From a virus: a stretch of DNA of 24,059 nucleotides. How positions within the stretch are numbered: position 1 is the first letter of the stretch; each line of letters begins with the position of its first letter. Under the pieces are notes generated by a model that was not told the origin of the DNA, made no database searches, and saw only the letters and a program-made list of their open reading frames with translations. Location: positions 1-24,059 of IMG/VR virus record IMGVR_UViG_3300042549_004077. One strand, written 5' to 3'. Position numbers and translations under genes: made by a program. This document shows positions 245 through 16,189 of the stretch, piece after piece.

Positions 245-1045
245 TTATGCAACATCACGTAAAAATTTTATCACGTGTTTTGCCTGATTTATATCCATAT
301 TTTTTAACGGTGGAGCATGGAATTTCACCGAATGATACTGCGACCAATCTATCGCAAAAAACTCCTCCCAGGTTTCAACTTTTGGTTGGCTAGGATTACT
401 AAAATACTGCCAACCCGTTTGATTTGTTTTCCAAATACCTAATAATTCATACTCACTGAACCAACTTGTACTATCAAATTCTTGTGTATTTGCTATGGCA
501 TCTAAAAAATTACAGCCGTGTCGTTGTTCTATATATGATTTTAACTCAAGCCAATCTTGTTTGGTATAGGGCATTAATTCATTGACTAGACTAACAGAGT
601 GTTTGCGTGATATACCTAGGATTTTTTCAATCATAGTGCCATATAAATGCTGATACTCATTCCAAAGATCTTCAGCTTTGAAGTTTAATTCTCCACTGAC
701 TATCATGCTATAAGATTTAAGTAAAATTAAATCACAGTCTTGTATTAAAAAATATTCACTGCTAAAATGATCTAGTGCGCAGAGTTTGAATGCTTGTTGT
801 TTATACCAATTATTATGTGACCAACGACTTAGATCATAATGTTTACCAAAGTACTCATCATCTAAAAAAGTAAAGTTGGTGATGTTTAGATTAAATTCTA
901 AGAATAGCTCTTGAAATTGCAGTTGGCTATAAGGACTGATGATAATCGTGCGATCGCACTGTGGAAATATCCTGTGGTCAAAACTTAATGTAGCCATGGC
1001 TTCATTGATTCTACCCGGACCTACACACATGATACGTGTGATCAT
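245..1045 (-). CDS. Glycosyltransferase-like protein (resembles the DUF6492 type)
   Basis: This is a 266-aa protein starting at the ATG at 1045, which overlaps the stop of the upstream gene in an ATGA. A longer reading from 1141 would run deep into that gene and is unlikely. Residues 80-110 carry a WYKQQ-x2-KL stretch followed by YFLIQDCDLILL, where D103-x-D105 resembles the DxD metal/nucleotide-sugar motif of GT-A glycosyltransferases. The WxxQQ-xxKL layout before it recalls DUF6492-type proteins. No signal peptide or membrane helix is visible, so it should act in the cytoplasm. The ATGA overlap implies translational coupling with the NeuD-like gene, and both are driven from the sigma70 promoter at 1791-1819. 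The likely job is modification of a host or virion glycan; the donor sugar and acceptor cannot be predicted. Confidence 0.7.
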   Translation of the reverse strand: MITRIMCVGPGRINEAMATLSFDHRIFPQCDRTIIISPYSQLQFQELFLEFNLNITNFTFLDDEYFGKHYDLSRWSHNNWYKQQAFKLCALDHFSSEYFLIQDCDLILLKSYSMIVSGELNFKAEDLWNEYQHLYGTMIEKILGISRKHSVSLVNELMPYTKQDWLELKSYIEQRHGCNFLDAIANTQEFDSTSWFSEYELLGIWKTNQTGWQYFSNPSQPKVETWEEFFAIDWSQYHSVKFHAPPLKNMDINQAKHVIKFLRDVA

Positions 1046-1755
1046 TCTACGTCTGTTCTTTTTAGAATACGACCGTTGTAGACGGCTGTGGTACCCGGTT
1101 CCATGTCTTTGGAAACTGTAGCAGTAGCATGTATTTTGCAATCATCACCAATGGTTACATGTGACTGTTTGCTACTGTGTCCATTAAACACTGTGGCTCT
1201 AGTACCAACATAAACATTGTTACCAAGTATGACGTTGCTCATTAGATAAACACCTGCACTGAGTACACAGTTGTCACCAAGGGTAACATCATTAGCAAAT
1301 CCACTGGCGTCAGTGATTGTACAATGTCGTCCAATCCTAGCACCTGCACGTATGTTTACCTGGCGCCCAATATAAGTCCCAGCACCAACTTCTATGTTTT
1401 TGCTTAACATACTGCGAGGATCTATTAGTGTATAGCAGTCAAGTTTGTTATCATCAATGAATTTAATACGATTTAAGCGTAGTTGATATCCGCTGAGTAC
1501 ATCAGTTTCAATGTTACTGTTGCCATCCCAGAAACTGCCTACAAAAAACTTGGCATCACCAAACTTTTTAGGATTATCAACAAGATCTAACTCACTGCCC
1601 AAACAAGCCAGTCCGTTTAATTCTTCAACCCGGCCCGCATAATACTGATCAACAAAGCCCAATACCGGAATATTTAATTGTTCGCAGGTATCTGTAATAA
1701 AGTCCCAGGTCTGCCTAGCGCCTATTATTACCAATGGTTGATTAAAGTTTGACAT
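1042..1755 (-). CDS. NeuD/PglD-like sugar O- or N-acyltransferase (left-handed beta helix)
   Basis: This is a 237-aa protein. The N-terminal part (PLVIIGARQTWDFI, residues 7-20) is a Rossmann-like strand-loop-helix as in PglD/NeuD proteins. From about residue 118 there is a run of imperfect hexapeptide repeats (IEVGAG, YIGRQV, ARIGRH, VTLGDN, VILGNN, VTIGDD), the hallmark of left-handed beta-helix acyltransferases. These normally form trimers and transfer acetyl or similar groups from a CoA donor to a nucleotide sugar. The length fits the roughly 210-240 aa of the family. It is the first gene of the leftward sugar operon. Its ATG lies 36 nt from the -10 box of a near-consensus sigma70 promoter, with only a weak CGGAA ribosome site. 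The exact sugar is unknown. Confidence 0.85.
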   Translation of the reverse strand: MSNFNQPLVIIGARQTWDFITDTCEQLNIPVLGFVDQYYAGRVEELNGLACLGSELDLVDNPKKFGDAKFFVGSFWDGNSNIETDVLSGYQLRLNRIKFIDDNKLDCYTLIDPRSMLSKNIEVGAGTYIGRQVNIRAGARIGRHCTITDASGFANDVTLGDNCVLSAGVYLMSNVILGNNVYVGTRATVFNGHSSKQSHVTIGDDCKIHATATVSKDMEPGTTAVYNGRILKRTDVE

Positions 1756-1769
1756 ATGGTTCCGTTTAA

Positions 1770-1777
1770 CGTAAATA
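1770..1777 (+). promoter_or_regulatory. T4-late-like octamer, 5 nt before the desaturase ATG
   Basis: CGTAAATA, then TAGTT, then ATG at 1783. This is the same octamer-N5-ATG layout seen at 3339, 11951, 14607 and 16916. There is no Shine-Dalgarno sequence before the ATG. The layout is the main reason for preferring the start at 1783 over the one at 1756. Confidence 0.4.
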
Positions 1778-1782
1778 TAGTT

Positions 1783-2553
1783 ATGCTTACATTATACAGA
1801 ACTATTAAAAATTCGTCAACATATTCACAGGTTTTATTTGTACAATCTGTCATGCACGCCCTAGTTATCGCAGGACTAATTGTTGCATTTGATTGGAGTT
1901 TGTTATTTTCTGGACTAGCCGTTAGTTGGTTATTATTCTGCGTTGGTGGTAGTGTGAGTCTACACCGTTGGACTTGTCATCGTAGCTTTGAACCAAAAAA
2001 TCGTGTGATTAAATGGATATTGTTATGGTTGGGTGTACAATGCACCTTGGGTAGTGTACCTGGATTTGCCTCTGCACATCGACAACATCACGTACACAGC
2101 GACACTGATCAGGATCCGTTCAAACTGACTGATAATTTCTGGCACAATTTCAAATTGTTTTGGTATCATTTCCCTAAGATGAGTGCCAGCCCTAAGATGA
2201 TCGTAGACATTCTCAGAGATGAGGACATGAGATTAAGTCATGACCACTATTGGAAGATATGGGCAGTATATCCTGCACTAGTTTTACTTCTAGGCGGTCC
2301 TGTGTATTTTGTTTATTTTGTTGCCTTACCAATAACTTATATGGTGTTAGGTATGAGTTGGGTAACTGTAATAGCACACAGCGGGCCAATAGATCCTGTT
2401 ACCAACGATCGTAGTTGGGATAGTAGACTTTTTACAGTATTATTTGCTGGGGAAGGATTACATAACAGCCATCACGCACATCCAGGTCAGTGTGACTTCA
2501 ATGCAACTAAATTTGATCCTACAGGATTAGTTATTAAATTTCTTAAACACTGA
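1783..2553 (+). CDS. Membrane fatty acid desaturase (acyl-CoA delta-9 type)
   Basis: This is a 256-aa protein and the only rightward gene in the window. All three histidine boxes of di-iron membrane desaturases are intact: H61-x4-H66 (HRWTCH), H99-RQHH and H227-NSHH. Hydrophobic stretches around residues 17-60, 75-95 and 163-200 fit the usual four-helix topology. The family introduces a cis double bond into an acyl chain, using O2 and a reductant supplied by the host. The short form without a cytochrome b5 domain matches bacterial DesC-like enzymes. An in-frame ATG at 1756 abuts the ATG of the divergent acyltransferase gene, but I prefer 1783 because of the octamer. The 3' end overlaps the next gene, which is convergent, by 27 bp. 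This is probably an auxiliary metabolic gene altering host membrane fluidity during infection; that role is inferred. Confidence 0.85.
   Translation: MLTLYRTIKNSSTYSQVLFVQSVMHALVIAGLIVAFDWSLLFSGLAVSWLLFCVGGSVSLHRWTCHRSFEPKNRVIKWILLWLGVQCTLGSVPGFASAHRQHHVHSDTDQDPFKLTDNFWHNFKLFWYHFPKMSASPKMIVDILRDEDMRLSHDHYWKIWAVYPALVLLLGGPVYFVYFVALPITYMVLGMSWVTVIAHSGPIDPVTNDRSWDSRLFTVLFAGEGLHNSHHAHPGQCDFNATKFDPTGLVIKFLKH
1791..1819 (-). promoter_or_regulatory. Sigma70 promoter of the sugar operon
   Basis: On the - strand: -35 TTGACG (1814-1819), a 17-nt spacer, and -10 TATAAT (1791-1796). It drives the NeuD-like, glycosyltransferase and cupin genes. It lies inside the 5' end of the oppositely oriented desaturase, so the two transcription units overlap head to head. 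Confidence 0.8.
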
Positions 2554-3339
2554 TTGATCAGGCACACGCCCAATTAGTCGAATAAACCAATAACCAGTAT
2601 CCCAATCACCCGGTTTCAAACTGTTAGTTGCTGCACCTGCACAACCATGATGATTGTTATGATTACCATCACATGGACAGAATATTGCCGCTACCTTGCT
2701 GTTGAAACTTTTATCATCAGTGTTGAAATTACGATAGCCAAATTTAGCCAACCAAGTATTGTGTGCCAAAACTGTGATATAACTAGTTGCTTGGAATCCA
2801 TATACCACTGGCACAAAGTACAAATAACATACCGCTTTTATGCCAAATAATGACAATAAAACAATGTAAATGGCCACAATTTTGAAGTAATTCTTATGGA
2901 AAAATTTATGTATAGGATCTACACTAAGGTCTTTAACTATACGTGGATTAACATGATATGTTGGGAAGTAATAGAACCACAACTTGATACTGCGCCAGAA
3001 CCCACCACCACTGGTATTTGGACTGTGTGGATCATCTAATTTATCGCTGGTTTGATGATGTTTACGATGTGTGCTAGACCAAGCAATACTACTGCCTAGA
3101 CTCATAACTGTAGCATAGAACAACATCAGTATCTTAAATGCTACATGCTTTTCTTTGAAGTTACCGTGCGCACTGTATTTGTGTAAGCCACAACTAACCC
3201 CTACCAGAGTCATTAACCAACCAATGATAAAGAAGCTGATTAAAAATAAGGTTAGATCAAACTGATATGCTAGTGTGTAGACGAATCCCACATAGACAAA
3301 TGCTTGTAATAGTTTTACTCTGGTATCTAGGCTTGGCAT
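2527..3339 (-). CDS. Second membrane fatty acid desaturase
   Basis: This is a 270-aa protein with all three desaturase histidine boxes at the same positions, within a few residues, as its convergent neighbour: H53-x4-H58 (HKYSAH), H91-RKHH and H227-NNHH. Hydrophobic segments lie near residues 10-50, 65-90 and 152-192. The two proteins are clearly paralogues but diverged, so this is not a recent duplication. The reading frame is open to 3366, but that start (TTG) lies inside tRNA-Glu. Candidate starts are the ATGs at 3345 and 3339. I choose 3339 because it lies exactly 5 nt after a perfect TATAAATA. A CPCDG segment (residues 221-225) just before the third box is unusual. Carrying two desaturases suggests two acyl substrates or two double-bond positions; this is inference. 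Confidence 0.83.
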   Translation of the reverse strand: MPSLDTRVKLLQAFVYVGFVYTLAYQFDLTLFLISFFIIGWLMTLVGVSCGLHKYSAHGNFKEKHVAFKILMLFYATVMSLGSSIAWSSTHRKHHQTSDKLDDPHSPNTSGGGFWRSIKLWFYYFPTYHVNPRIVKDLSVDPIHKFFHKNYFKIVAIYIVLLSLFGIKAVCYLYFVPVVYGFQATSYITVLAHNTWLAKFGYRNFNTDDKSFNSKVAAIFCPCDGNHNNHHGCAGAATNSLKPGDWDTGYWFIRLIGRVPDQSVFKKFNN

Positions 3340-3344
3340 ATTCA

Positions 3345-3352
3345 TATTTATA
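3345..3352 (-). promoter_or_regulatory. Perfect T4-type late promoter octamer
   Basis: TATAAATA on the - strand, immediately after the CCA end of tRNA-Glu and exactly 5 nt before the ATG at 3339. It matches the T4 late -10 consensus in full. It would allow late expression of the desaturase independent of the early tRNA transcript. Confidence 0.5.
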
Positions 3353-3354
3353 AT

Positions 3355-3430
3355 TGGTACTCCCAACGAGATTCGAACTCGTGTTACCTGCGTGAAAGGC
3401 GGGTGTCCTAGGCCTCTAGACGATGGGAGC
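3355..3430 (-). tRNA. tRNA-Glu (anticodon TTC), CCA encoded
   Basis: The acceptor stem GCTCCCA/TGGGAGT is complete with a discriminator A and encoded CCA. The anticodon loop CTTTCAC gives TTC. The T arm (ACGAG-TTCGAAT-CTCGT) is perfect. The anticodon stem holds one C-A mismatch. It is the last gene of the tRNA cluster. Confidence 0.95.
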
Positions 3431-3439
3431 AGTAATCTA

Positions 3440-3613
3440 TTATTTTTCTTTTTTCTTAGGTCGTCCCCAGGCAGCCTGAGGACTTCCTTCTTCTACACCG
3501 CTGACTCCTCGGGCAATTTGTTGTACGACGCCACCATTTGCTAAAAACTTTTTCATAGCAAGATCTATTGCCTGTGATTCTTCTAACTCTTGTTGTTTGG
3601 TGTCTTTTGACAT
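3440..3613 (-). CDS. 57-aa conserved-looking phage microprotein of unknown function
   Basis: This 57-codon ORF sits between tRNA-Arg and tRNA-Glu. It has an AGGA ribosome site 8 nt before its ATG, so it is very probably translated. The protein has a charged N-terminal helix (MSKDTKQQELEES), a helical core around AMKKFLANGGVVQQIARGVSG (residues 19-39), and a basic C-terminal tail starting WGRPKKK. The small, helical and basic character would fit a DNA- or RNA-binding or host-modulating early protein. I recall similar 'FLANGG' microproteins in tailed phages, but no function can be given. It is transcribed with the tRNAs, so early expression is likely. Confidence 0.75.
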   Translation of the reverse strand: MSKDTKQQELEESQAIDLAMKKFLANGGVVQQIARGVSGVEEGSPQAAWGRPKKKEK

Positions 3614-3642
3614 TTATTATTCCTATTGTTATTAATTCTTAC

Positions 3643-3717
3643 TGGTCCGGCGTAAAGGAATCGAACCTCTATCTAGGGAGTAGAAATCCCCTGTTTTATC
3701 CATTAAACTAACACCGG
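3643..3717 (-). tRNA. tRNA-Arg (anticodon TCT), CCA encoded
   Basis: Acceptor CCGGTGT/ACGCCGG, discriminator A, encoded CCA. The D stem is GTTT/AAAC, the anticodon loop TTTCTAC, and the T arm AGAGG-TTCGATT-CCTTT. It is 72 nt without CCA. It reads AGA, a codon common in AT-rich genomes. Confidence 0.93.
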
Positions 3718-3724
3718 ACTGTTC

Positions 3725-3799
3725 TGGCTACGATGCACGGACTCGAACCGCGACCAAGGGTTTTGGAAACCCGTGTGCTACCATTAACACTACACCGTA
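3725..3799 (-). tRNA. tRNA-Trp (anticodon CCA), 3' CCA encoded
   Basis: Acceptor TACGGTG/CATCGTA, discriminator G (usual for bacterial Trp tRNA), encoded CCA. The anticodon loop TTCCAAA gives CCA. The D stem GTGT/GCAC and T arm CGCGG-TTCGAGT-CCGTG pair well. The anticodon stem has one C-T mismatch at its top pair. Confidence 0.9.
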
Positions 3800-3801
3800 C
3801 C

Positions 3802-3876
3802 TGGTGCGCCTTGATAGAATTGAACTATCACTCCTCCGATTATGAGTCGGACGCTTTACCATTAAGCTAAAGGCGC
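3802..3876 (-). tRNA. tRNA with anticodon CAT (elongator Met or lysidine-type Ile), CCA encoded
   Basis: The acceptor GCGCCTT/AAGGCGC is perfectly paired, with discriminator A and CCA. Anticodon stem TCCGA/TCGGA, loop CTCATAA. The fully paired 1-72 position and the lack of three G-C pairs in the anticodon stem exclude an initiator. CAT could be Met or, after TilS modification, Ile (ATA codon). T4 itself carries an Ile tRNA of the second kind, so both remain open. Confidence 0.92.
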
Positions 3877-3886
3877 AACTTAAAAA

Positions 3887-3974
3887 TGGCGGAAACGGAG
3901 AGATTCGAACTCTCGAAACCTTTCGGTTTGCTTCGTTAGCAGTGAAGTGCCTTCGACCACTCGGCCACGTTTCC
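3887..3974 (-). tRNA. tRNA-Ser (anticodon GCT), CCA encoded
   Basis: A type II tRNA of 85 nt plus CCA: acceptor GGAAACG/CGTTTCC, discriminator G, anticodon loop CTGCTAA (GCT). The long variable arm is AAACC-GAAA-GGTTT with a GAAA tetraloop, and the T arm is GAGAG-TTCGAAT-CTCTC. One A-C mismatch closes the anticodon loop. Confidence 0.95.
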
Positions 3975-3981
3975 TTGTTCA

Positions 3982-4098
3982 TTAGTATAGAGTTCTCGTG
4001 CTACAGTTGCAACCGTAGCATATGACCCATCGGAAGCTAGCTATCTAGAATTAGTCCGCATATATCATAATATTGATTGGCTGAGAACCCTATACTAA
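3982..4098 (-). ncRNA. Structured non-coding segment closed by a 16-bp helix
   Basis: Positions 3982-3997 and 4083-4098 are inverted copies that pair over 16 bp on the - strand (TTAGTATAGGGTTCTC with GAGAACTCTATACTAA, one G-U). They enclose 85 nt. Inside is a second hairpin at 3999-4020, with an 8-bp stem GCTACGGT/ACTGTAGC around a TGCA loop. There is no ORF and no tRNA fold here. It lies between the HNH gene and tRNA-Ser within the tRNA transcript. It could be a stable small RNA, a processing site for maturation of the tRNA precursor, or a remnant of a mobile RNA. The pairing is seen directly; its role is unknown. Confidence 0.55.
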
Positions 4099-4121
4099 TA
4101 ATCCCGCTTACTCTATACGGG

Positions 4122-4137
4122 GACATTCCGGAATGTC
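4122..4137. repeat. Perfect 16-bp palindrome after the HNH gene
   Basis: GACATTCCGGAATGTC reads the same on both strands. It lies 8 bp past the HNH stop codon and 23 bp from the closing helix of the structured RNA. There is no T-tract, so it is not a classical terminator. It could be a protein binding site, possibly for the HNH protein, or an RNA hairpin. Confidence 0.6.
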
Positions 4138-4145
4138 AGCGACTC

Positions 4146-4781
4146 TTAAAAGTTAAGTCTACTTAATATCTCATTTGCGGCTTTTATACGTTTTGGGCTG
4201 TTTGCTAATCCCATAGCACGTAACGCAGGCGTTGCATACTTATGTATCCTTAACATTTCTTCTAACAACTCTAAATTTAATTCTCTTCTATTGATCTTAA
4301 TATTCTTAGCTCTATATGTGTGCGTTTGACTGTGGCAATTAGGGCAAAGTATTCTTAAATTTTTTCTATTATTATTAAATGGATCACCATCTATGTGATC
4401 TATTTCTAAAGTTATAGGTTTGTCTTGCCAATCACTTATACCACACATTTCACATTTGTAATTACTTTCGTGCAATATCCTTTTCTTTAGAGCCTCTCGG
4501 CTCATTTCTTCATATGGTCTATCCCAGGATTTCTTTATCTTAGTTTCCTTAGCTCGACGTTGCATATCATCATAATCATATTTGCTTTTAGCTACTTCAA
4601 ACTTGTCTCGTTTTTCTTGTGGTGTTAGGCTGTCGTTATACTTCTGCAAAGTTGCGCTGGTTTTTTCTCGTGATTCTTTACTAAACGTTCTACTGTTTCC
4701 ACAACTCCTAGAGCAAAATTTCTTTTCACCCCATTTGCTATAGGCATCAAATTCTTTACCGCATTTTGTACATATTTTCAT
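4146..4781 (-). CDS. HNH endonuclease (free-standing, homing-type)
   Basis: This is a 211-aa protein. The N-terminus is a small zinc-ribbon-like module (C4-x2-C7 ... C23-x3-C27). A lysine-rich helical linker follows. The HNH nuclease core is C110-x2-C113, then L-E-I-D-H129 with the catalytic His, NNNRKN (136-141) and C146-x2-C149-H150, a zinc-stapled beta-beta-alpha metal fold. The C-terminal helices (around residues 171-208, with ATPALRAMGLANSPKRIKAANEIL) look like a DNA-binding helix-turn-helix. The gene sits inside the tRNA cluster, with its ATG only 7 nt past the CCA of the first tRNA, and is followed by a palindrome and a structured RNA. Homing endonucleases often lie in tRNA arrays of T4-like phages. 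No split host gene is seen, so it is a free-standing copy. No good ribosome site precedes the ATG. Confidence 0.88.
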   Translation of the reverse strand: MKICTKCGKEFDAYSKWGEKKFCSRSCGNSRTFSKESREKTSATLQKYNDSLTPQEKRDKFEVAKSKYDYDDMQRRAKETKIKKSWDRPYEEMSREALKKRILHESNYKCEMCGISDWQDKPITLEIDHIDGDPFNNNRKNLRILCPNCHSQTHTYRAKNIKINRRELNLELLEEMLRIHKYATPALRAMGLANSPKRIKAANEILSRLNF

Positions 4782-4787
4782 AATATT

Positions 4788-4872
4788 TGGTGCCGGCTGA
4801 GTGAATCGAACACTCTCTATCTTACGAAGCCTGATTACAAGTCAGGTGCAATCCCACTCTGCGCAAGCCGGC
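4788..4872 (-). tRNA. Atypical tRNA: anticodon TGT (Thr) with a long type II variable arm
   Basis: Acceptor GCCGGCT/AGCCGGC (7 bp), discriminator A, encoded CCA. The anticodon stem CCTGA/TCAGG is perfect around loop CTTGTAA, giving TGT. The T arm GAGTG-TTCGATT-CACTC is perfect. Between the anticodon and T arms are 14 nt (with a CTT-CGT-AAG mini-stem) where a Thr tRNA should have 4-5. The D arm is weak (GCA/TGC). The body is 82 nt. Long arms are normally limited to Leu, Ser and Tyr tRNAs, so the charging identity is uncertain. Confidence 0.8.
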
Positions 4873-6319: not shown

Positions 6320-6327
6320 TATTTATC
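6320..6327 (-). promoter_or_regulatory. T4-late-like octamer before the 463-aa gene
   Basis: GATAAATA on the - strand, 7 nt before the ATG at 6312. It contains the TAA stop codon of the upstream nucleotidyltransferase gene. No ribosome binding site lies between it and the ATG. Confidence 0.45.
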
Positions 6328-6757
6328 TTTGTGTAGATTTCCAGCGTTTCAATAATTCACTGCTGGAATTTAGCTTAAAATCGCCACCTACACCAAATAC
6401 AAATTCTACATTGGGTTCTGACATTTCTGGAATATTTGTCGCTGTACGATCGCCGCCATTAGCAAAGACTATTTTACTGTTAGGATACATCATTTTAACA
6501 TTACGTATGGCTTCTACCGCTGAATCATTATTGTCGTCAAATAATATACAATGATCTACCATACGAAGACTTTCAATGATTGTTACACGATCTTTGATGG
6601 GCATGAATGCCTGCCCTTTTTTGCGAATTAACCATGCATCACTGTTAACTCCAACTACCAGCATAGTTCCTAACTGCCTGGCGGCACGGAAGTATTCTAT
6701 GTGTCCTGAGTGTAGTGGATCAAATCCACCTGTTACCAGAACCACTCTATTTAACAT
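6323..6757 (-). CDS. Cytidylyltransferase-like nucleotidyltransferase (HldE-C/TagD type)
   Basis: This is a 144-aa single-domain protein. The nucleotide-binding signature TGGFDPLHSGHIEYF (residues 9-23) holds the HxGH motif (H16, G18, H19). A second family motif, S-S-S-E-L-L-K near residues 132-138, stands in for the ISSTxxR motif. The length fits the family (about 130-160 aa). Such enzymes join CTP or ATP to a phosphorylated small molecule, for example glycerol-3-phosphate or heptose-1-phosphate, making an activated precursor for cell envelope polymers. The ATG overlaps the stop of the methyltransferase gene by 11 nt and has an AAAGGTAGG-like ribosome site. The substrate is not predictable. 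It may work with the sugar genes at the left end of the window. Confidence 0.85.
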   Translation of the reverse strand: MLNRVVLVTGGFDPLHSGHIEYFRAARQLGTMLVVGVNSDAWLIRKKGQAFMPIKDRVTIIESLRMVDHCILFDDNNDSAVEAIRNVKMMYPNSKIVFANGGDRTATNIPEMSEPNVEFVFGVGGDFKLNSSSELLKRWKSTQR

Positions 6758-8100: not shown

Positions 8101-8345
8101 TAATAGTCGTCACCGTCATCTTCTTCATCAGCGATCGCTTGATCTTCTTCATCGCCAAGATACTCCTTAACAGCACGACCTAGATAAGCATCAGTACCAC
8201 CAAAGGTTTTAAGCTCACTTTCAGTGATGTTGTGATCTGCAGCAACACTGATCACGTGATCTGCGGCCGCTTGACGATCCTTAGGATTGATATACTCTTT
8301 ACAAGTAAGCCAAACTTCACTGGCGATATCTAATTCAATGCTCAT
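8100..8345 (-). CDS. 81-aa acidic protein linked to uvsX, unknown function
   Basis: This is a small protein with a helical first part (SEVWLTCKEYINPKDRQAAADHVI, residues 9-32) and a strongly acidic tail (GDEEDQAIADEEDDGDDY). I recall similar small proteins near recombination genes in marine T4-like phages, but none has a known role. Its ATG overlaps the uvsX stop (ATGA) and its stop overlaps the uvsY start (TAATG), so the three are translationally coupled. The acidic tail could mimic DNA or bind a basic partner such as UvsX or UvsY; that is inference. Confidence 0.8.
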   Translation of the reverse strand: MSIELDIASEVWLTCKEYINPKDRQAAADHVISVAADHNITESELKTFGGTDAYLGRAVKEYLGDEEDQAIADEEDDGDDY

Positions 8346-9421
8346 TCTGCTGTCTCCTCTTCTGTTTCTTCGACTACTTTTGATTCAGTACTTAGCAGAT
8401 TTACATTAGAACTAAGTTCTTTCATAACCTTATCTAAGCAACCATCTTCATTGCGTTCCCAGGCTTTGCGGAATTGTTTAATAGTTGTTTTATCAGCAAA
8501 TGTATAAACTAAACTATTGCCTTCTTTCTTAAGCAAGTTTTTAGCTTCTAACATGTCTGTTAATCCTGAGTAAGGACTCATACCTGTTTCATATGGAATC
8601 TCTACTTGGACTGATTCAAACGGTTTAGCGTAACGTGTTTTCATAATCTTACATGCCGCACGTATACCATTAACTGTTGTAGTCTTGTTGCCGTCTGCAT
8701 CTGTTTTAAGTTTAAGTTTGCGCATAGCTACAACGATACTTGACGCATAGATAAAGCCTTGACCACCACTAATCTTATCATCTGGATCAAACATATCCTG
8801 GCTCGCATAAGTATGATTCGTACAAACCAATCCTAAGTTCAGTGTACCAAACATGTTTACGCAGTTACGTACAAGTGCTGTAAGTGCTTTAGGTTTACGA
8901 CCCATATCGCCCTTCATTTCACCTGCTTCAAACTGGTTAACGTCTGTTGGAGTTAACATCATACCTAATGAATCTAATACGAATAGGACCTTTGGACGGT
9001 CTTCTTCTGGTAAGGTGCGATACTCTTTAACAAAGTCACTGATAACTTTGGCTACATCATCGATCATAGCCATGTTAAGTTTCAGTAATTTGTCTTCTGT
9101 GGTGTCTACACCAAGTGCGTGTAACCAAGCTTCATCAAGTGCGTTTTCTGTATCGATCAAGATAACATAAATGCCTTGTTCTTGTGCGTGTCTAACAATA
9201 TTACCTGAACAGATAAATGATTTACCTGCGCCTGATTCTCCTGCAAATACAGTTACTTTACCCATTGGAATACCTCTTTCAAAGTTACCGGATAGTAAGT
9301 AGTTTAATGTGTAGTTGCCAGTGCTGATCCAATCTGTTGGATCGTTAAAGCCAATACCCAAGCCGTCAATGCTTTTGGTAATCGACTTTCTAAATTTTGA
9401 TATATCGAATGGTTTTGCCAT
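8342..9421 (-). CDS. uvsX: UvsX RecA-like recombinase
   Basis: This is a 359-aa protein (T4 UvsX is 391). The Walker A motif is GESGAGKS (residues 61-68), a catalytic-type DTENALDEAW segment follows (90-99), and Walker B is VLFVLDS (145-151). A DNA-binding L2-like loop region containing GGQGFIYASSIVVAMRK comes next. The protein forms a filament on ssDNA and drives strand exchange for recombination-dependent replication and repair, assisted by UvsY and gp32, both encoded next to it. The C-terminus is rich in glutamate (VVEETEEETAE). The ATG is preceded by GAGGA at a good distance. A strong hairpin lies in the 59-bp gap to gp32. Confidence 0.95.
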   Translation of the reverse strand: MAKPFDISKFRKSITKSIDGLGIGFNDPTDWISTGNYTLNYLLSGNFERGIPMGKVTVFAGESGAGKSFICSGNIVRHAQEQGIYVILIDTENALDEAWLHALGVDTTEDKLLKLNMAMIDDVAKVISDFVKEYRTLPEEDRPKVLFVLDSLGMMLTPTDVNQFEAGEMKGDMGRKPKALTALVRNCVNMFGTLNLGLVCTNHTYASQDMFDPDDKISGGQGFIYASSIVVAMRKLKLKTDADGNKTTTVNGIRAACKIMKTRYAKPFESVQVEIPYETGMSPYSGLTDMLEAKNLLKKEGNSLVYTFADKTTIKQFRKAWERNEDGCLDKVMKELSSNVNLLSTESKVVEETEEETAE

Positions 9422-9480: not shown

Positions 9481-10491
9481 TTAAGAAGTTTTTTGTCTAT
9501 TACGAATCATCGCTAAGATGTCTTCAGCACGTGCTGTTCCACCTGCTGGAGGTGTTGCAACTGGTGCTGTAGGAGCCGCCGGTGCAGCCTCTGTAACTAC
9601 TGGAGCAGCCACAGCCGGTGCAGTTTCAAATTCTTCATCTGCCACTGCTGGTGTTGCTGTTTGTGCTACAGGTGTAGCTGATTCAGCTGAGACGATTGTT
9701 ACGCCTCTTGGTTTGTAATAGTTACCCCAACGTTCTGCATCATATGCTTGACCATCTACACTTGCTTCAAACATTTCTTTCATGACTTTAAGTTCAACTT
9801 CGCTAGGTTTCTTAGGTAAGAAATCTTTCAAGTTGTATAAGCCATGAGTTTCAATAGCTGCAGCTTCTTCTGCTGTTAATGCAGATTCTTTGCGTGACCA
9901 TTTTGAAGTTGAGTAGTCAGCATAACCACCTTTTGATGTTTTAGTAACTGTAAAGTCTAAACCACCTTGGTAGTCTGTTGGTAAGTTTTCTAACTCTGGA
10001 TCAAGTAATGCTGATTTGATCAAGTTAAAAATCTGTGGACTAATGATAAATCTACGAATTGGATTTTCTGGTGTCTTATCGTCTGTGATAGGATTCTCAC
10101 GCACAAAACCTTGGAACAAGTATGATCTTTTCTTCCAATACTTACGACCCATTTCTTCTAGACTTTGATCCTTGAACCAAGTACGGACTTCTGCTAAGAT
10201 TGGACATGCTTCGCCCCACATCTCAACGCATGGTACTTGTACAGTGACTGGTTTACTATCTGCTTGGCCTTTAACGCCAGCAAACGGTAAATTGATCATT
10301 GCTCGTTCTGCCCAAAAGAATGTGTTTTTTGTGTCTGCGTCTGGAAGGAATCTAATGCGAGCGTTTGTGCCTTCTTGGATGTTCCAGTGTGCGTAGATAG
10401 CGTTGTCGCCACCACTTTGTGAATTACCGCCTGTGCCACGGTTTTCTGATGCTTGTAACTTTGCACGGATTTCTGCTAAACTTGTTGCCAT
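9481..10491 (-). CDS. gp32: gp32 single-stranded DNA-binding protein
   Basis: This is a 336-aa protein. The core (residues about 25-265) matches gp32 of marine T4-like phages: NARIRFLPD, a VQVPCVEMWGEACPIL cysteine segment, GRKYWKKRSYLFQGFV aromatic and basic DNA-binding strands, and RRFIISPQIFNLI. The N-terminal helix MATSLAEIRAKL would serve cooperative binding. Only the two cysteines of the CVEMWGEAC segment are evident, so a T4-type zinc site is not obvious. After residue 270 comes an Ala/Pro/Thr/Val linker of about 50 residues, ending in EDILAMIRNRQKTS, a basic helix rather than the acidic tail of T4 gp32. The protein coats ssDNA in replication and recombination and contacts UvsX, UvsY and polymerase. 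The ribosome site AAGGAAA is good and a promoter lies upstream at 10556-10584. Confidence 0.92.
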   Translation of the reverse strand: MATSLAEIRAKLQASENRGTGGNSQSGGDNAIYAHWNIQEGTNARIRFLPDADTKNTFFWAERAMINLPFAGVKGQADSKPVTVQVPCVEMWGEACPILAEVRTWFKDQSLEEMGRKYWKKRSYLFQGFVRENPITDDKTPENPIRRFIISPQIFNLIKSALLDPELENLPTDYQGGLDFTVTKTSKGGYADYSTSKWSRKESALTAEEAAAIETHGLYNLKDFLPKKPSEVELKVMKEMFEASVDGQAYDAERWGNYYKPRGVTIVSAESATPVAQTATPAVADEEFETAPAVAAPVVTEAAPAAPTAPVATPPAGGTARAEDILAMIRNRQKTS

Positions 10492-10601: not shown

Positions 10602-11951
10602 TTATTGTTTTTCAATTAATTGGATTATTTTATAGTTATTCTTATATACCAATTCTGCTTCTTCAACTTGGCTATGTGTGTCCCAGGCTAGAGTATATCC
10701 ACAGTCCAGAGCATATATTTCCAGTTGTTTTCTTCTGGCTAATCTATTAGCAAAGGTCAGAGTTGGATTAGTTTTGTTATACCAAAGATGTACGTCTTTG
10801 GTTAATATCATGTTCTTATCTTTTTTACTTTCACTATATAACGGGGTTCCTGGTAATACTGATGTTAGGTATCCAAGTTCCAAATAGTTAATAACTTTAT
10901 TAGCATATGGTTGGTACTTGGTTAACATAGCTAAAGTTTCAGCAAAGTCCTCTTCTGTTTCTGTTGGATATCCTGTAAACATTAAAAACGCACAGGTAAT
11001 ATTATATTTGGACATAAACTCTAAACTACTAGCCAAATCTTCATTTGAAAAGTTCTTTTTCATTTCGTAGCGTAATCTATCACTACCTGTTTCTACTCCA
11101 ATTTCTAACAATTCTGCGCCAGACTCTGCTATTCTCTTCCAATAGGCATCGTTACACTGTTTAGCATTTCTGACTATGAATTGCCCGCCCCAGGTGAAGT
11201 TTGGATACTCTTTTCTTAATTCTATAATAAGACCCAATAATGTTTCAAATGCCGGCAGTGACCCGTTAACTAAACTGTCAGTAAAATGAAAGTGTACTGA
11301 CTGTAGATCTTTTAGTACTTCACGCATTTCCAAAACTATATTTGCTGGACTACGCTGTGTAAATTTCCAATGTTCATGTATTTCACAGAATGTACACTGT
11401 CTGACACAGCCACGTGATCCAGTGATTGGTACCCAAAGTTTAAGTTTTGCGGTTTCTGCAGCCTGTTGATAAAATGCAACATCATATTTGCTGTAGTCTG
11501 GCGTGTATGGGGTATCCATGTCAACAAACTTATCAATGGCAGGTAGATTAAAAAATTTGGCTAGGAATTCAGGAAACTGATATTCACCATCGCCATCTTG
11601 ATAATAATCTAAGATACCTTGCTCTAGTAACGCATTGATATTGTGCTCTAGTGAGTCGTTGATCGAATTCTTAATACCAGCACCACCAATGGTTATTTTG
11701 ACACTGCTATTTAATTTTTTTAGTTCTTTGGCTAGTTCTCTAGCAGGTTCTTGACTTTTGTAAGAAAACAAACTTAATACGATAAGATCAGGGTTTAGAT
11801 CAATCACTTGTTGTGCTGTGTGTTCTTTGGCATTAAAATCCAAAAACTCTGCATCTATACCCAACCAACGGCAAGCACCCATAAGGATAGCTGGAGCGGC
11901 AGGAAGATACCAATGTAGCATTGGAGGGAAGTTACAGACGACTACTTTCAT
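10602..11951 (-). CDS. Radical SAM protein with B12-binding-like N-terminal domain
   Basis: This is a 449-aa protein. Residues 1-115 look like the Rossmann-type cobalamin-binding domain (MKVVVCNFPPMLHWYLP, LIVLSLFSY, ITIGGAG), but no canonical DxHxxG cobalamin ligand motif is present. The radical SAM core follows: RGCVRQCTFCEI gives C182-x3-C186-x2-C189 for the 4Fe-4S cluster, then FTDSLVNGS, ELLEIGVETGSDRLR and FLMFTGYPTET as later barrel motifs. Such enzymes perform radical methylations or rearrangements on unreactive carbons. It stands alone between a terminator and the gp32 promoter region, with a GATAAGTA octamer 5 nt before the ATG and no Shine-Dalgarno sequence. Late expression is therefore possible. 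The substrate is unknown: nucleotide, lipid or glycan are all conceivable. Confidence 0.88.
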   Translation of the reverse strand: MKVVVCNFPPMLHWYLPAAPAILMGACRWLGIDAEFLDFNAKEHTAQQVIDLNPDLIVLSLFSYKSQEPARELAKELKKLNSSVKITIGGAGIKNSINDSLEHNINALLEQGILDYYQDGDGEYQFPEFLAKFFNLPAIDKFVDMDTPYTPDYSKYDVAFYQQAAETAKLKLWVPITGSRGCVRQCTFCEIHEHWKFTQRSPANIVLEMREVLKDLQSVHFHFTDSLVNGSLPAFETLLGLIIELRKEYPNFTWGGQFIVRNAKQCNDAYWKRIAESGAELLEIGVETGSDRLRYEMKKNFSNEDLASSLEFMSKYNITCAFLMFTGYPTETEEDFAETLAMLTKYQPYANKVINYLELGYLTSVLPGTPLYSESKKDKNMILTKDVHLWYNKTNPTLTFANRLARRKQLEIYALDCGYTLAWDTHSQVEEAELVYKNNYKIIQLIEKQ

Positions 11952-11956
11952 ATATC

Positions 11957-11964
11957 TACTTATC
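11957..11964 (-). promoter_or_regulatory. T4-late-like octamer before the radical SAM gene
   Basis: GATAAGTA on the - strand, then GATAT, then ATG at 11951. It is one of four leftward cases with exactly 5 nt between octamer and ATG. It lies 7 nt beyond the T-tract of the upstream terminator. Confidence 0.45.
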
Positions 11965-11971
11965 AGCCAAG

Positions 11972-11998
11972 AAAAAAGGCACTAAAAAAGTGCCTTTT
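11972..11998 (-). terminator. Rho-independent terminator after the 864-aa gene
   Basis: A 10-bp stem AAAAGGCACT/AGTGCCTTTT with a 5-nt T loop, continuing into a run of T on the - strand. It lies 14 nt past the stop of the 864-aa gene and closes the long leftward structural transcript before the radical SAM gene. Confidence 0.88.
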
Positions 11999-12012: not shown

Positions 12013-14607
12013 TTATTTTAATAAGCCTGATAATCTCATGATATCTTCTAATTTTGGATCATTTGCTGGTTTTAATTTGCTAATTCTTTGTTGATCTAAA
12101 TCGTGTTGTTCTTTTCTCTTATATGCTGGTTCATCTGTGCCTATACCTGCCCAGGGTTGTTTTTCTCTTTGATTAGCTGGTTTGATACCTGGTAACGGTT
12201 TTGTAGGTTGTCCTGGTGTAATACCTTTGCGTTGGAATGTTGGTTTGTCATACTTGCTGTAGTCTGGATTATCTGGCATTTCAATGGCTTCTTTAGCTAC
12301 CTTTTCAGCGTTTAATTTTTTGATATGATAGATGTCATCTTCGACTTTGATAGTATAATTCTCTTCCATGTCGCCTACTACTTTACCTTGGATTTCTGGT
12401 TGGGTTTTATCTCTGATCATATCACCTACGTTGATAGCGCCTTCATTTACTAATCTTTCAAATGCCTCTTCTAGTGTTTCCTCTTTGGACATCTTTTCTG
12501 TTCGTCTGCGAGCAACATCGCTCATATGATGGATTTTGCCTACAGGGTCTTTTTTCTTACCTTTAGATTTTTTCCAATCACCTTCGTGTTCCCAACCTGT
12601 TAATTTGCCTGTTTTAGGATCATATTTGATTGTGTCTTTGGCTTCTGCTACTTTATATAAGTCATCAATGTCGCCTAAGTAGCCATCGCAAGCGTGTTCT
12701 TCATCGTTTGGACAATCACCTCCGCAATATTTACATTCTTCTTTATCTTCGTTTACTTCTTCTGGATAGTCTACGCCCACTTCACGGTATACTTCACGGA
12801 CCATGATGCTAATATCACTTGAGCCTATTTCTTCCATCGGAGCATGGAATGATGCTACATCACTCGCAGCATTCATAATACCTTCCGGGCCTGCTTTCTT
12901 AAGTAACTCGCTATGATCATTAATGCTGTTTAAGATTCTACGTATGATCGCTGATTGTATATCTTCAATATTTGCCAATTGGTCTTCTTCACCTTCATTT
13001 GTTGTTGCTAACATATTCTCTGTGCCACCCGGGATAGCCGCACCATATTCGTTGCCTTCTAACATGTCATGCGCTTTCATATTAATAATGTCACCGTGCT
13101 GATCACTTAATGTATCTAATTCATCATCTGATAATGGTGTGCCATCTGTAAAAGTTGCAGCTGATGCATACGCATCTGCGTAGTCTGGACGATCCCATGA
13201 TTCAACACCGTCTAATTCAATACTGCCTAGGTCAACTTGTTTACCGTTAATCTCTACTGGTGCCGGAGTATATGACTCATCTAAGTCACCACCCTCACTG
13301 CCTGTTTCTGCTGGTTCAGCAGGAATGTCTGAATCACCAATTTCATTTTCAATTTGTTGATAAATTTGTGGTAGGTTATCTTGTAACCAGGCAACAACAA
13401 CATCACGTGCATCTGCTTCTGGATCAGTTTCTGCTAGTTCTTGTAAACGATCAAACAAGCTATCATCACCCAATACATGATATAGTGCGTTAGTAGCGTT
13501 TTGTGCATCCACTCCGACTGGTAGTGGGTCGCTTAGTATATCGATTAGTTTACCTACTTCGTCATCGTCGTCTGGGATTGCCCAAGCACCTTCTGCAACA
13601 GTATCTGCCCAGCTTTCAAAATATTCTGCAAATTTATTGTTCTTTTTCATTTCGTATGCCTTTTGTACAATTGGTAATGCGGATTCTAAACGATCGTCAA
13701 ATATTTTTTTAACGAATTTTTCTTTCAATGCTACTGTATCAACATCATCCATTAATGTTTCTTCTGTATGGAAATGTTCTTTAATTTTCTTGTAACCTTT
13801 CTTGCCTGTTAGTCTTTTTAGCGTGTGGTTTAGTAGGCCATGATATTCAAATGCCGCTTCTGCCATTGCTTGTGTTTCTTCATCTTCAAACATGCGATTA
13901 CGCATTCCACTCTTAAATGGACGTAGTTTAGCAACTTCTTCAGCAATCTTAGTAATGTGTTGACCAAAGTCATCCATCAGACTGCCGCCTTCACTTAGGT
14001 GACGTGCCATAGCACGAGCATAGCGTAGATTATTTTCCGGTAGTTTGAAACGTTCACCGTCTTTGTTTTGTAATAGAATAGAATTAATTTTGCGAGTGCG
14101 AGCACCACGTTTTGTTTCATCTACCACAGCTGAGTGGCGTAGAATGATCTTTACAGGTCCTTTCTTTTCGTAGCTGCTTTTACGTGTACCGTATAGGCTT
14201 TCTGCTACTACTTCGTCTTTATCGTAGGTCGCATCAGCTTTGCTAGCCTGTTGTATATCACGATGTTTTAGTGTACTGCGTGTGATATCTCTAGGTTCAA
14301 AACTTAATAGATTACGTTTAGCAAACTCACGTAGTTCACGTAGGAAGCTGTACCAAGTATCACGCTGTTCCTTGTCAAGATCTGAGCTGATATTCTTACT
14401 AAAATAGACTTTTAAGCTGGCTTCATCAATGATGCTGATAGTAATGTTGCCGTAATCGTGATCGTCAACTGTGTAATCAAAGTTGAAAAAACGTGCTTTT
14501 TCAGGATCTTGTGTGGCTTTGGCTTTTTCGTCACCCAGGCTGACATCCTCAAATCTATCACGGATTTTTTCAAATAGACCTTCTGCAATTTTATTAATTT
14601 CTCTCAT
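12013..14607 (-). CDS. 864-aa protein of unknown function, probably virion-associated
   Basis: No named family is recognised, though the region around KRGARTRKINSILLQNKDGERFKLPENNLRYARAMARHL recalls conserved proteins of marine T4-like phages. The N-terminus MREINKIAE-G matches the T4 prohead protease site I-A-E/G after a 9-residue leader. Residues 1-350 appear folded (alpha/beta then helical); 350-620 are strongly acidic. A cysteine cluster C625-x2-C628-x3-C632-x5-H638-x-C640 could bind zinc. Two more candidate cleavage sites occur (for example LEE-A in EETLEEAF). The tail is rich in K, P and Q and ends in LEDIMRLSGLLK, a motif shared with two nearby proteins. It lies directly after gp17 and before a terminator. 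There is no Shine-Dalgarno sequence; a GATAAATA lies 5 nt before the ATG. An internal-head or scaffold-type role is inferred. Confidence 0.88.
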   Translation of the reverse strand: MREINKIAEGLFEKIRDRFEDVSLGDEKAKATQDPEKARFFNFDYTVDDHDYGNITISIIDEASLKVYFSKNISSDLDKEQRDTWYSFLRELREFAKRNLLSFEPRDITRSTLKHRDIQQASKADATYDKDEVVAESLYGTRKSSYEKKGPVKIILRHSAVVDETKRGARTRKINSILLQNKDGERFKLPENNLRYARAMARHLSEGGSLMDDFGQHITKIAEEVAKLRPFKSGMRNRMFEDEETQAMAEAAFEYHGLLNHTLKRLTGKKGYKKIKEHFHTEETLMDDVDTVALKEKFVKKIFDDRLESALPIVQKAYEMKKNNKFAEYFESWADTVAEGAWAIPDDDDEVGKLIDILSDPLPVGVDAQNATNALYHVLGDDSLFDRLQELAETDPEADARDVVVAWLQDNLPQIYQQIENEIGDSDIPAEPAETGSEGGDLDESYTPAPVEINGKQVDLGSIELDGVESWDRPDYADAYASAATFTDGTPLSDDELDTLSDQHGDIINMKAHDMLEGNEYGAAIPGGTENMLATTNEGEEDQLANIEDIQSAIIRRILNSINDHSELLKKAGPEGIMNAASDVASFHAPMEEIGSSDISIMVREVYREVGVDYPEEVNEDKEECKYCGGDCPNDEEHACDGYLGDIDDLYKVAEAKDTIKYDPKTGKLTGWEHEGDWKKSKGKKKDPVGKIHHMSDVARRRTEKMSKEETLEEAFERLVNEGAINVGDMIRDKTQPEIQGKVVGDMEENYTIKVEDDIYHIKKLNAEKVAKEAIEMPDNPDYSKYDKPTFQRKGITPGQPTKPLPGIKPANQREKQPWAGIGTDEPAYKRKEQHDLDQQRISKLKPANDPKLEDIMRLSGLLK

Positions 14608-14612
14608 ATTCT

Positions 14613-14620
14613 TATTTATC
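14613..14620 (-). promoter_or_regulatory. T4-late-like octamer before the 864-aa gene
   Basis: GATAAATA on the - strand, directly after the gp17 stop codon, then AGAAT and ATG at 14607 (5-nt gap). Seven of eight bases match TATAAATA. Confidence 0.5.
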
Positions 14621-16189
14621 TTACATTAGGATAAAGGGCATTGGCTCAATGAAGTCATCTAGATTATCACGCATTGTTGCATCTAAACTAGCATCATAGC
14701 TTTGTAATAGCTGTGCCATACGTATAATTAGGATCAAACTCATAACTAGGTCATCCGTTTCGCCTGGTTTAGCCGCATAGCTAGCACCGTTGGCTACAAA
14801 TGTCTTAAGTTCACTTATCAACGGACGACTATATAGAGTCATGCGCTTGCTTTCAACTAGGCTTTTAAGTTTAGCACAGGCGGTGATTTTAGGTTTATTT
14901 GATGTATTAAATCCTTTGCGATATCTACGGCTTGCTCCTGCGGCTCTAGGCTCACTGAGGAAAGTACCTTTGATATTCTCTTCGCCAATTTCAGCAATAC
15001 TAACTAGGCCAGCTTCACCTAGAGAATTGTTTTCTAATGAATAATAAACATTGGTTGATGGCACTGTTTCTGTCAGGTACTTGGTTATTTCGCTGAGGAT
15101 TTTAATTTGTTGTGTTATTGGTGTACGATTGTGATGCCACTCTGCTACTTGTGTGAAGTTAGGTAATTCAAATACCTGTATACCTGCAGGGTCACCACCG
15201 GTGCCTAGACTAGGGTCTAAGGCTACCATATATGTTTTACTTGGATCAGGACGCTTGTACCAACGTACTTGTCCTTGACGCTCAATTGGGTCAATACCTT
15301 GTAGTTCTATCAGATAACTAGGATTAATCAGTGTTTCGTCCCAGATGATAAATTCACAATCCATCTCACGACGGAAACGTTCATCACCTAGCTGCGCTCG
15401 TTGTTGTATTGCCCACTGTTCATCACGATCCGGGTGTTCATTCCAATAGCTTCTAAATGCCTTGAACCCGTTAACTCCTAGTTCAGTTGGATTGCCGTAT
15501 TCATCAAACTGTTTATTGGCACCTTTCCATAGGGTAGCAAACTGATCTTCATCACTGTTAGGTGTTGAAGTAATAATACATTTACCACCAGTTGCTAGTG
15601 TGGGACTAATTGAAGTCCAGAATTCTCGTCCTATGGTAGAGCGAACGAATGCAAACTCATCAGCGTATAACAACGAAATGGACATACCACGACCAGTGTT
15701 TTCTGTTGTTGTGGCTGATATAATACGACTGCCATTATCAAAGTCTATACTACCTTTGTTGTAACTCACTGCACCTGCACGTATAGAATCTGGTACGCTT
15801 TCATAAGCATACCGTATACGTTGCATGATTTCTTGTGAGCCTGTGTACTTGTGTGCGGCAATTAGGATAGTGCTATCTGGCACAAACATAGCGTACCATA
15901 ATAGATAACCAGCGGCGCTGGTCGACTTACCTGTTTGCCGAGGCATTAAACTAATGCTGAATCGATAGTTGTGGTATGTGTGAATTAGACGTTTTTGATA
16001 ATCAAATGGCTCATACAGCATACGTCCACGAGTAGGGTGTTGTATGTAGAAGTAATTGCTCATAAAGTATTCAGGGCCACCAATTGGGTCTGCACACTTT
16101 GCGAATTCACGTACTTGATCTTCAGTGAAAGATTCCTGCTGATGCGGTTTCTTTACTAGAACGCTGTCTGTACCTTTAGCTGTTGCCAT
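14621..16189 (-). CDS. gp17: Terminase large subunit (gp17)
   Basis: This is a 522-aa protein. The N-terminal ATPase has Walker A LMPRQTGKST (residues 81-90), Walker B with catalytic acid LLYADE (173-178), and the coupling motif ITSTPNSDEDQF (206-217). The C-terminal RNase H-like nuclease has its acidic residues at D325 (MVALDPSLGTGGDPAG), E386 (YYSLENN) and D479/D480 (ETDDLVMS). It pumps DNA into the prohead and cuts concatemers. T4 gp17 is 610 aa, so this is a shorter form. Its first 14 nt overlap the end of the SGNH hydrolase gene. Unlike T4, gp16 is not the immediate upstream neighbour but lies nearly 6 kb away across six inserted genes. Confidence 0.97.
   Translation of the reverse strand: MATAKGTDSVLVKKPHQQESFTEDQVREFAKCADPIGGPEYFMSNYFYIQHPTRGRMLYEPFDYQKRLIHTYHNYRFSISLMPRQTGKSTSAAGYLLWYAMFVPDSTILIAAHKYTGSQEIMQRIRYAYESVPDSIRAGAVSYNKGSIDFDNGSRIISATTTENTGRGMSISLLYADEFAFVRSTIGREFWTSISPTLATGGKCIITSTPNSDEDQFATLWKGANKQFDEYGNPTELGVNGFKAFRSYWNEHPDRDEQWAIQQRAQLGDERFRREMDCEFIIWDETLINPSYLIELQGIDPIERQGQVRWYKRPDPSKTYMVALDPSLGTGGDPAGIQVFELPNFTQVAEWHHNRTPITQQIKILSEITKYLTETVPSTNVYYSLENNSLGEAGLVSIAEIGEENIKGTFLSEPRAAGASRRYRKGFNTSNKPKITACAKLKSLVESKRMTLYSRPLISELKTFVANGASYAAKPGETDDLVMSLILIIRMAQLLQSYDASLDATMRDNLDDFIEPMPFILM

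Follow-up and report, generated by a model that had tools for sequence, protein, structure and literature searches.

The window analysed here, a virus record of 24,059 bases taken whole, carries an intact radical SAM gene of the B12 type. As judged by comparison of related loci, this gene is swappable cargo lodged between a structural gene and the gene of a gp32-like protein, and is a member of a large, uncharacterised family of uncultivated phages. The favoured reading, put forward tentatively, is that of a late-made, exchangeable cargo enzyme with a class-1-type cobalamin domain, which most likely alters a carbohydrate, probably a surface or virion glycan or a precursor of one.

Gene and window layout

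The earlier note had assigned 10602-11998 to the gene and had given no strand. The ORF occupies 10602-11951 of the minus strand, and 11952-11998 forms its upstream header. The B12-type radical SAM gene itself proved real, with its domains intact and a header of its own. The gene order is structural gene, radical SAM gene, gp32-like gene, then UvsX and UvsY. The features of the window are as follows.

1042..1755, minus strand: NeuD-like sugar acetyltransferase (TIGR03570, 3.1e-30; 105.3 bits, below the cut-off of 160.8)
6323..6757, minus strand: nucleotidyltransferase of HldE-like type, sugar context (TIGR02199, 1.7e-21; 76.6 bits, below the cut-off of 181.5)
8342..9421, minus strand: UvsX-like recombinase (PHROG match)
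9481..10491, minus strand: gp32-like single-strand binding protein, downstream flank of the slot (PHROG 1192, 1.4e-67)
10602..11951, minus strand: B12-domain radical SAM gene, ORF of 449 aa (Pfam domains, AlphaFold model)
10917..11438, minus strand: radical SAM barrel, about residues 172-345 (Pfam, predicted fold)
11385..11408, minus strand: CxxxCxxC cluster motif (C182, C186, C189)
11502..11951, minus strand: N-terminal B12-binding-like Rossmann domain, about residues 1-150 (Pfam, OxsB alignment, 71-row alignment)
11957..11964, minus strand: late-promoter-like octamer GATAAGTA
11972..11998, minus strand: hairpin terminator after the upstream structural gene (folding against shuffles; common to other loci)
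12013..14607, minus strand: structural gene, upstream flank of the slot (PHROG 13484, virion structural protein, 2.6e-20)
14621..16189, minus strand: terminase large subunit (PHROG and homologue search)

The structural gene has its own octamer at 14613-14620. Relatives use the gap between gp32 and UvsX as a second site for cargo; in the window this gap is empty. Six tRNA genes (Glu, Arg, Trp, Met, Ser, Thr) are found at 3355-4872, and two fatty-acid desaturase genes, 1756-2553 (plus strand) and 2527-3366 (minus strand), lie in opposite orientation with overlapping ends (Pfam). The source of the window is, on its marker genes, a jumbo-type virus of bacteria. Terminase and gp32 place it near the PA5oct-type jumbo phages (55% and 56% identity, respectively) and Sinorhizobium phage Phosso (51% and 60%).

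Protein domains, predicted fold and cobalamin

Pfam places the protein in the radical SAM superfamily, with Radical_SAM (PF04055) over residues 179-342 (1.1e-15; 58.6 bits against a cut-off of 29.5) and B12-binding (PF02310) over residues 21-103 (1.1e-9; 38.6 bits against 32.1). The layout is that of class 1: an N-terminal Rossmann B12 domain precedes the barrel, and the full-length fold matches OxsB and TsrM. The cluster cysteines are intact, as had been claimed; the single CxxxCxxC motif, C182/C186/C189, is unchanged in all 71 aligned relatives. The other residues identical in 71 of 71 rows are G89, G90, S179, G181, E208, N229, G285, E287 and K299. This alignment, used for both the model and the residue counts, includes L054 (16% identity, branch 7.15), which is probably no true member.

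The AlphaFold2 model built from these 71 rows has a pLDDT of 95.1 and a pTM of 0.92. Its top VIA-align rows are AprD4 (Z 25.0, rmsd 3.6, 376 aligned residues, 15% identity), OxsB (23.4), MgmA (23.3) and TsrM (22.4), and the rows of MiaB and RimO reach Z 19.6-21.4. The first Foldseek match is MgmA (5.1e-21). The profile of the 71 relatives matches OxsB, TsrM, CysS and TokK, with MgmA as its best match.

The absence of DxHxxG pointed out in the earlier note is real, as the motif occurs neither in the window protein nor in the first 230 residues of any of the 71 rows. The weight laid on it does not hold, because the class-1 structures OxsB, TsrM and TokK bind B12 base-off with no histidine ligand, as described in passages of PMC13331322 and PMC8992657. 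The notion that a missing DxHxxG means no B12 is ruled out by these structures, and its absence is compatible with the cofactor. The same passages derive the lower-face residue of class-1 enzymes from the loop after strand 3. F62 of the window protein aligns with OxsB Asn186, the residue under the cobalamin, and this column is Phe in 65 of the 71 rows. The invariant G89-G90 pair is no proof of cobalamin, because OxsB does not share it in the profile alignment. Cobalamin binding by the window protein is, on these alignments, plausible.

Placement in a known family with a mundane role, which the earlier note had named as a way for its idea to fail, was not found, and such an assignment was rejected because no NCBIfam family reaches its cut-off. 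The two best rows are TIGR04479 (PhpK family; 85.2 bits against 600) and TIGR04072 (lipid biosynthesis B12 radical SAM; 3.4e-24, 85.3 bits against 360), the latter listed second. Viperin or another described defence enzyme was likewise set aside; the sole PADLOC row for the window protein is the candidate PDC-M51A, which is weak (E 0.0014) and which gives 2.8e-9 for the relative in L009 and 1.1e-13 for that in L112.

Family and distribution

A scan with an eight-row alignment found at least 516 relatives among 599 candidate stretches of viral contigs, of which the best 80 were kept; the 88 viral genes collected include near-duplicates. In a search at E 1e-30, 12 of 13 viral records, mostly picked because the family was present, contain it, 11 of these in single copy. 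Among 50,697 phage records, three family queries between them matched only Streptomyces phage SF3 (24-26%), the one with L022 matching none. PHROG 21079 (unknown function) is matched by 36 of the 71 aligned relatives (best 9.9e-12) and PHROG 9298 (radical SAM domain protein) by 13 (best 1.8e-6); the window protein matches neither. A plasmid search gave 36 records, with identity of at most 26.7% among the 30 matches listed.

In bacteria, an initial genome scan gave no relative among 18 candidates, and 50 of 207 candidates in GTDB genomes are relatives. Beyond the short contigs L169 and L175, the nearest of these are six Bdellovibrionia/Bdellovibrionales contigs and one other bacterium (32-38%). 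Five of the seven nearest bacterial contigs have an adjoining c0-type radical SAM gene: four from Bdellovibrionia/Bdellovibrionales (L171, L172, L174, L176) and that of the other bacterium (L179). By eye, PP-loop ATPase genes also adjoin the family members of L172, L174 and L179, and the genome matches L169 and L173 resemble phage contigs in bins.

The gene is, as estimated from codon comparison, under purifying selection. The dN/dS of L005 against L006, the sole pair with unsaturated dS, is 0.081; the other three pairs give 0.10-0.19, with dS near or above 2.

The family is found in phages rich in other radical SAM genes, in records mostly picked for holding the B12-type family. PF04055 matches number 14 (13 over the cut-off) in a 260.7 kb record, and 8 (5) in each of the 299.9, 209.5 and 191.9 kb records. 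For L007, which is related to the window, the 99.6 kb record has 5 (4). The viral records G004, G005, G006, G009 and G010 range from 6 to 14 matches, 4 to 13 of them over the cut-off.

Cargo slot between the structural gene and gp32

The slot is seen in 59 of 90 gp32-bearing loci, a set enriched for the family by contigs fetched through the gene itself: it is empty in 36, holds other genes in 15 and holds this family in 8. In the 80 loci of the gp32-directed set alone, the family occupies the slot in two, L014 and L024. On the gp32 tree (85 rows, 55 scored), the five gene-bearing rows need five changes, and the gene therefore shows no clustering. This tree leaves out L002, L095 and proteins below 300 aa (thus L006), and the trees are quick ones with SH-aLRT as sole support.

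Pairs of loci show how the contents differ. Between the window and L009, gp32 is 98.2%, UvsX 99.4% and UvsY 99.3% identical, yet the radical SAM enzymes share 41.5%. Between the window and L002, the enzyme is 100% identical and gp32 94.0%. In L013, with gp32 at 92.6% to that of the window, other genes fill the slot. L091 has the gene, and the slot is empty in L020, L021 and L023, which share its gp32 clade, as well as in the cultured phages Phosso and Cassandra, in which the backbone is present. The enzyme tree separates a clade of slot-A enzymes, that of the window among them, from a clade of UvsX-slot enzymes (SH-aLRT 100 for either). Near-identical core genes with differing enzymes, an identical enzyme with diverged gp32 and the clade pattern together argue that versions are exchanged in place. 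The absence of the gene from close relatives, which had been offered as grounds for abandoning the idea, does occur; as the gene is absent or replaced there, it is better described as exchangeable cargo than as a useless gene.

The gp32-UvsX and UvsX-c81 gaps of L010-L089 are cargo slots as well. Many alternative gene sets occur in them, and their contents differ among loci with 98-99% identical gp32 (the window and L009-L012). A recurrent set comprises c12, two c0-type radical SAM genes and an SDR/epimerase gene. One of the c0-type genes of L003 lies above and one below the cut-off of the twitch family NF033640. The cargo gene c12 (c15 in another clustering), suspected by eye to be a sulfotransferase, has no Pfam match.

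Header and expression

The terminator described in the earlier note corresponds to a real hairpin at 11972-11998. Its energy in a 36-nt stretch is -13.2 kcal/mol (z -3.6, none of 200 shuffles as good), and over the whole 61-nt gap 6 of 200 shuffles do as well (z -2.4); a consensus terminator scanner does not list it. The hairpin also precedes the gene in L002, L003, L008 (z only -1.6 in a 104-nt stretch), L009 and L091, and not in L005 and L006.

The late-like octamer also stands: GATAAGTA lies 5 nt before the ATG of the window's gene. All nine slot-A headers read (the window, L002, L003, L005, L006, L008, L009, L091 and L095, of which L002 and L095 are near-copies) have GATAAGTA, GATAAATA or TATAAGTA at a distance of exactly 5 nt upstream of the ATG. 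The header of most slot-A loci consists of an AAGGCAC...GTGCCTT hairpin, GATAAGTA or GATAAATA, five bases and the ATG of the enzyme. The same hairpin-octamer header precedes different cargo in L013, L017, L026 and L034.

Across the window, TATAAATA with at most one mismatch is not enriched (47 found, 56.9 expected, 92 of 100 shuffles with as many). Although this overall count is at chance level, a chance octamer was rejected because its spacing to the ATG is sharply fixed. In 153 partly overlapping loci, with each in-frame ATG of the first 40 codons taken as a candidate start, the distance from [TG]ATAA[AG]TA to the ATG peaks at 5 nt (44 cases), with 2 at 4 nt, 3 at 6 nt, 13 at 7 nt, 6 at 8 nt, none at 9-14 nt and 27 at 15-26 nt. 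The window has further octamers at 3345-3352 and ahead of positions 16916 and 6312. Of nine octamers in 48 kb of Cassandra, one lies 5 nt before an ATG, and in 45 kb of Phosso the single octamer does not; gp32 of the relatives read has an ATAAATA-containing stretch upstream.

The octamer also stands 5 or 7 nt before the structural gene in 19 of 57 cases and before the terminase in 10 of 44, which suggests late expression of the radical SAM gene; on this pattern the gene is probably late-expressed. In the late promoters of T4, the octamer is located at about -13 to -6. With this geometry, the transcript start of the 5-nt octamer group would coincide with the ATG or adjoin it, and the spacing suggests that leaderless late mRNAs are made in these phages.

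CBM60-like neighbour of the relatives

In 45 of the 88 viral family members, the gene directly adjoins a gene of 115-207 aa that is CBM60-like. Among 66 roughly dereplicated loci, a CBM60-like gene lies within three genes in 32; these neighbour counts leave out 23 named loci, five of them dropped earlier already. Judged by eye, the 123-139 aa neighbour c52 in six further members of the 88 also resembles a short CBM60-like gene.

The neighbour product is predicted to fold like CBM60, a module that binds sugars in a calcium-dependent manner. The model of the neighbour at L112:7445-7942 (39 sequences, pLDDT 90.3) gives Z 12.6 to 2xfd and 12.4 to 2xhh, with the next row at 6.4, and a Foldseek value of 4.9e-5 against CBM60. 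At the sequence level, Pfam CBM60 (PF16841) matches one of the 39 neighbours weakly (E 0.0082) and Pfam CVNH one (0.0078), and a PDB sequence search with the neighbour profile returned two rows (E 0.45 and 0.47). K60 is the sole invariant residue of the 39 aligned neighbours.

The pairing extends to loci close to the window and to other enzymes. L009, with gp32 and UvsX near-identical to those of the window, has a CBM60-like gene beside its slot-A enzyme (E 1.9e-11). CBM60-like genes also adjoin two other radical SAM genes, both with SPASM domains (L239, L240), and a glycosyltransferase-like gene in L242 (Anp1, 2.9e-5; 24.1 bits against 28.8). Downstream of the enzyme in L118 (7567-12089) are a CBM60-like protein, a carbamoyltransferase (6.4e-66) and a phosphomannomutase (8e-25); next comes a gene that looks amidinotransferase-like by eye and has no Pfam match.

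In the window and its subclade, unlike in L009, no CBM60-like gene lies beside the enzyme gene. None was found in five related records (G001 of 99.6 kb, G002, G003, G007 and G012), which are perhaps fragments and belong to a set mostly picked for holding the family, nor in seven bacterial genomes carrying the family, in a search without positive control.

Proposed function and alternatives

In the favoured reading, the enzyme would be made late in infection and would cleave SAM to yield a 5'-deoxyadenosyl radical. This radical would then alter a carbohydrate, through B12-assisted C-methylation or through rearrangement or deoxygenation. The target would probably be a surface or virion glycan, made by phage or host, or its precursor, and the change could serve host recognition or escape. 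A sugar is suggested by the CBM60-like neighbour of the relatives, the surrounding sugar-type genes, the fold kinship to AprD4 and the surface-antigen-like swapping. The exchange of cargo versions resembles that of surface-antigen loci. Two points count against a sugar: the gene in the window lacks a CBM60-like neighbour, and its relatives are frequently placed among replication genes, a setting equally in keeping with a nucleic-acid role. Fold kinship leaves the substrate unfixed, because the substrates of MgmA and TsrM are not sugars. Part of the earlier interpretation is retained here, namely the intact gene, its own header and the late-like octamer; the weight on the missing DxHxxG is not.

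A wider form of this reading, which is doubtful, would see modular glycan tailoring in uncultivated jumbo and T4-like phages. Many cassettes would pair a radical SAM enzyme with a CBM60-like dock for sugar chains, and would be swapped in serotype-like fashion at set positions next to core genes. In the slot seen in the window, the cargo would stand behind a terminator and a late promoter for leaderless mRNA, and near-identical phages would come to differ in surface chemistry.

Nucleic-acid modification stays alive because the family is often placed among replication and recombination genes. Within three genes in the 66 loci are primase (12), helicase (12), gp46-like (7), UvsX (7) and gp32 (7) genes, the primase, helicase and gp46 being named by eye. 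The enzyme would C-methylate or otherwise alter a base or a tRNA residue, protecting phage DNA or adjusting translation. MiaB and RimO have the same two-domain layout, and 2OG-oxygenase-like genes (c17, by eye; the one tested has no Pfam match) lie within three genes in 11 of the 66 loci. However, replication genes are conserved core, so that any insertion there looks replication-linked, and the octamer is common to the gene and to structural genes. The CBM60-like neighbour of many relatives also speaks against this role, as do a score of only 44.1 bits for TIGR00089 (MiaB/RimO methylthiotransferases; cut-off 251) and the lack of a TRAM domain among the Pfam matches of the window protein. It is considered unlikely.

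A low probability is also given to a radical dehydration or deoxygenation of a sugar that is independent of cobalamin, as in AprD4, with the B12-type domain as a structural relic. AprD4 heads the VIA-align rows and acts on paromamine with a reductase partner, according to PMC5461906, and 8 of the 66 loci have an SDR-like gene (c10) no more than three genes away. The Z of AprD4 is just 1.6 above that of OxsB, however, and the B12-binding domain exceeds its Pfam cut-off; in the portions of the literature consulted, cobalamin binding by AprD4 itself was not found stated.

Protein or peptide modification is rather improbable. The substrate would be the CBM60-like neighbour or a virion protein, by analogy to MgmA, the best Foldseek match, which acts on methyl-coenzyme M reductase, and the neighbour does directly adjoin the enzyme gene in many relatives. 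Against this, CBM60-like genes are also found next to radical SAM genes of other types and next to a glycosyltransferase-like gene, the window's gene lacks such a neighbour, and a single residue of the neighbour, K60, is invariant. Least probable is lipid tailoring, a hopanoid-like or membrane lipid methylation to which the TIGR04072 row, the window's two desaturases and the desaturase-cluster genes that 3 of the 66 loci have no more than three genes away would point, since that row falls far below its cut-off and the desaturases of the window lie 7 kb from the gene.

Comparison with known systems

Phages with many radical SAM genes are already in print, and the function of the enzymes is left open in the parts of those reports consulted. 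A 183 kb marine T4-like genome has 12 (Nishimura 2017, PMC5332604), and what is reported to set the host-recognition clusters of two pelagimyophages apart is their radical SAM cassettes (PMC7029224). The accessible portions of these papers describe no B12-type family, CBM60-like neighbour or gp32-side slot, and the radical SAM passage of a Baltic Sea study concerns ahbD (PMC9301287). Within the literature surveyed, mainly the accessible parts of non-subscription papers, none was found on the B12-type family or the CBM60-like neighbour in phages. The recurrent pairing with a sugar-binding fold and the allele-like swapping at one slot yield a testable hypothesis on virus-made sugar chemistry, in a large, uncharacterised family of the B12 type; enzymes of this class are noted for unusual carbon chemistry.

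The Arenbergviridae-like jumbo phages (PA5oct, Cassandra) and Sinorhizobium phage Phosso have a related terminase and gp32. Cassandra and Phosso share the backbone TerL - structural gene - gp32 - UvsX, but carry nothing in the slot.

Among enzymes, MgmA (MCR glutamine methylase, 9ccb) is the best Foldseek and profile match to the window protein, but is an archaeal protein-modifying enzyme, and TIGR04014 gives 46.4 bits against a cut-off of 360. AprD4, a radical SAM 1,2-diol dehydratase, has the highest VIA-align Z at low identity; its reductase partner has no counterpart adjoining the window's gene, by eye. OxsB, TsrM, TokK and CysS share with the window protein an N-terminal Rossmann B12 domain without the DxHxxG histidine, followed by a CxxxCxxC barrel, at 13-19% identity in VIA-align rows. 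On the lower face, the Phe of the window protein stands in place of Asn in OxsB, Arg in TsrM and Trp in TokK (passages of PMC8992657 and PMC13331322; the position was aligned here for OxsB). The window protein is shorter than OxsB, TokK and CysS, and is phage-borne.
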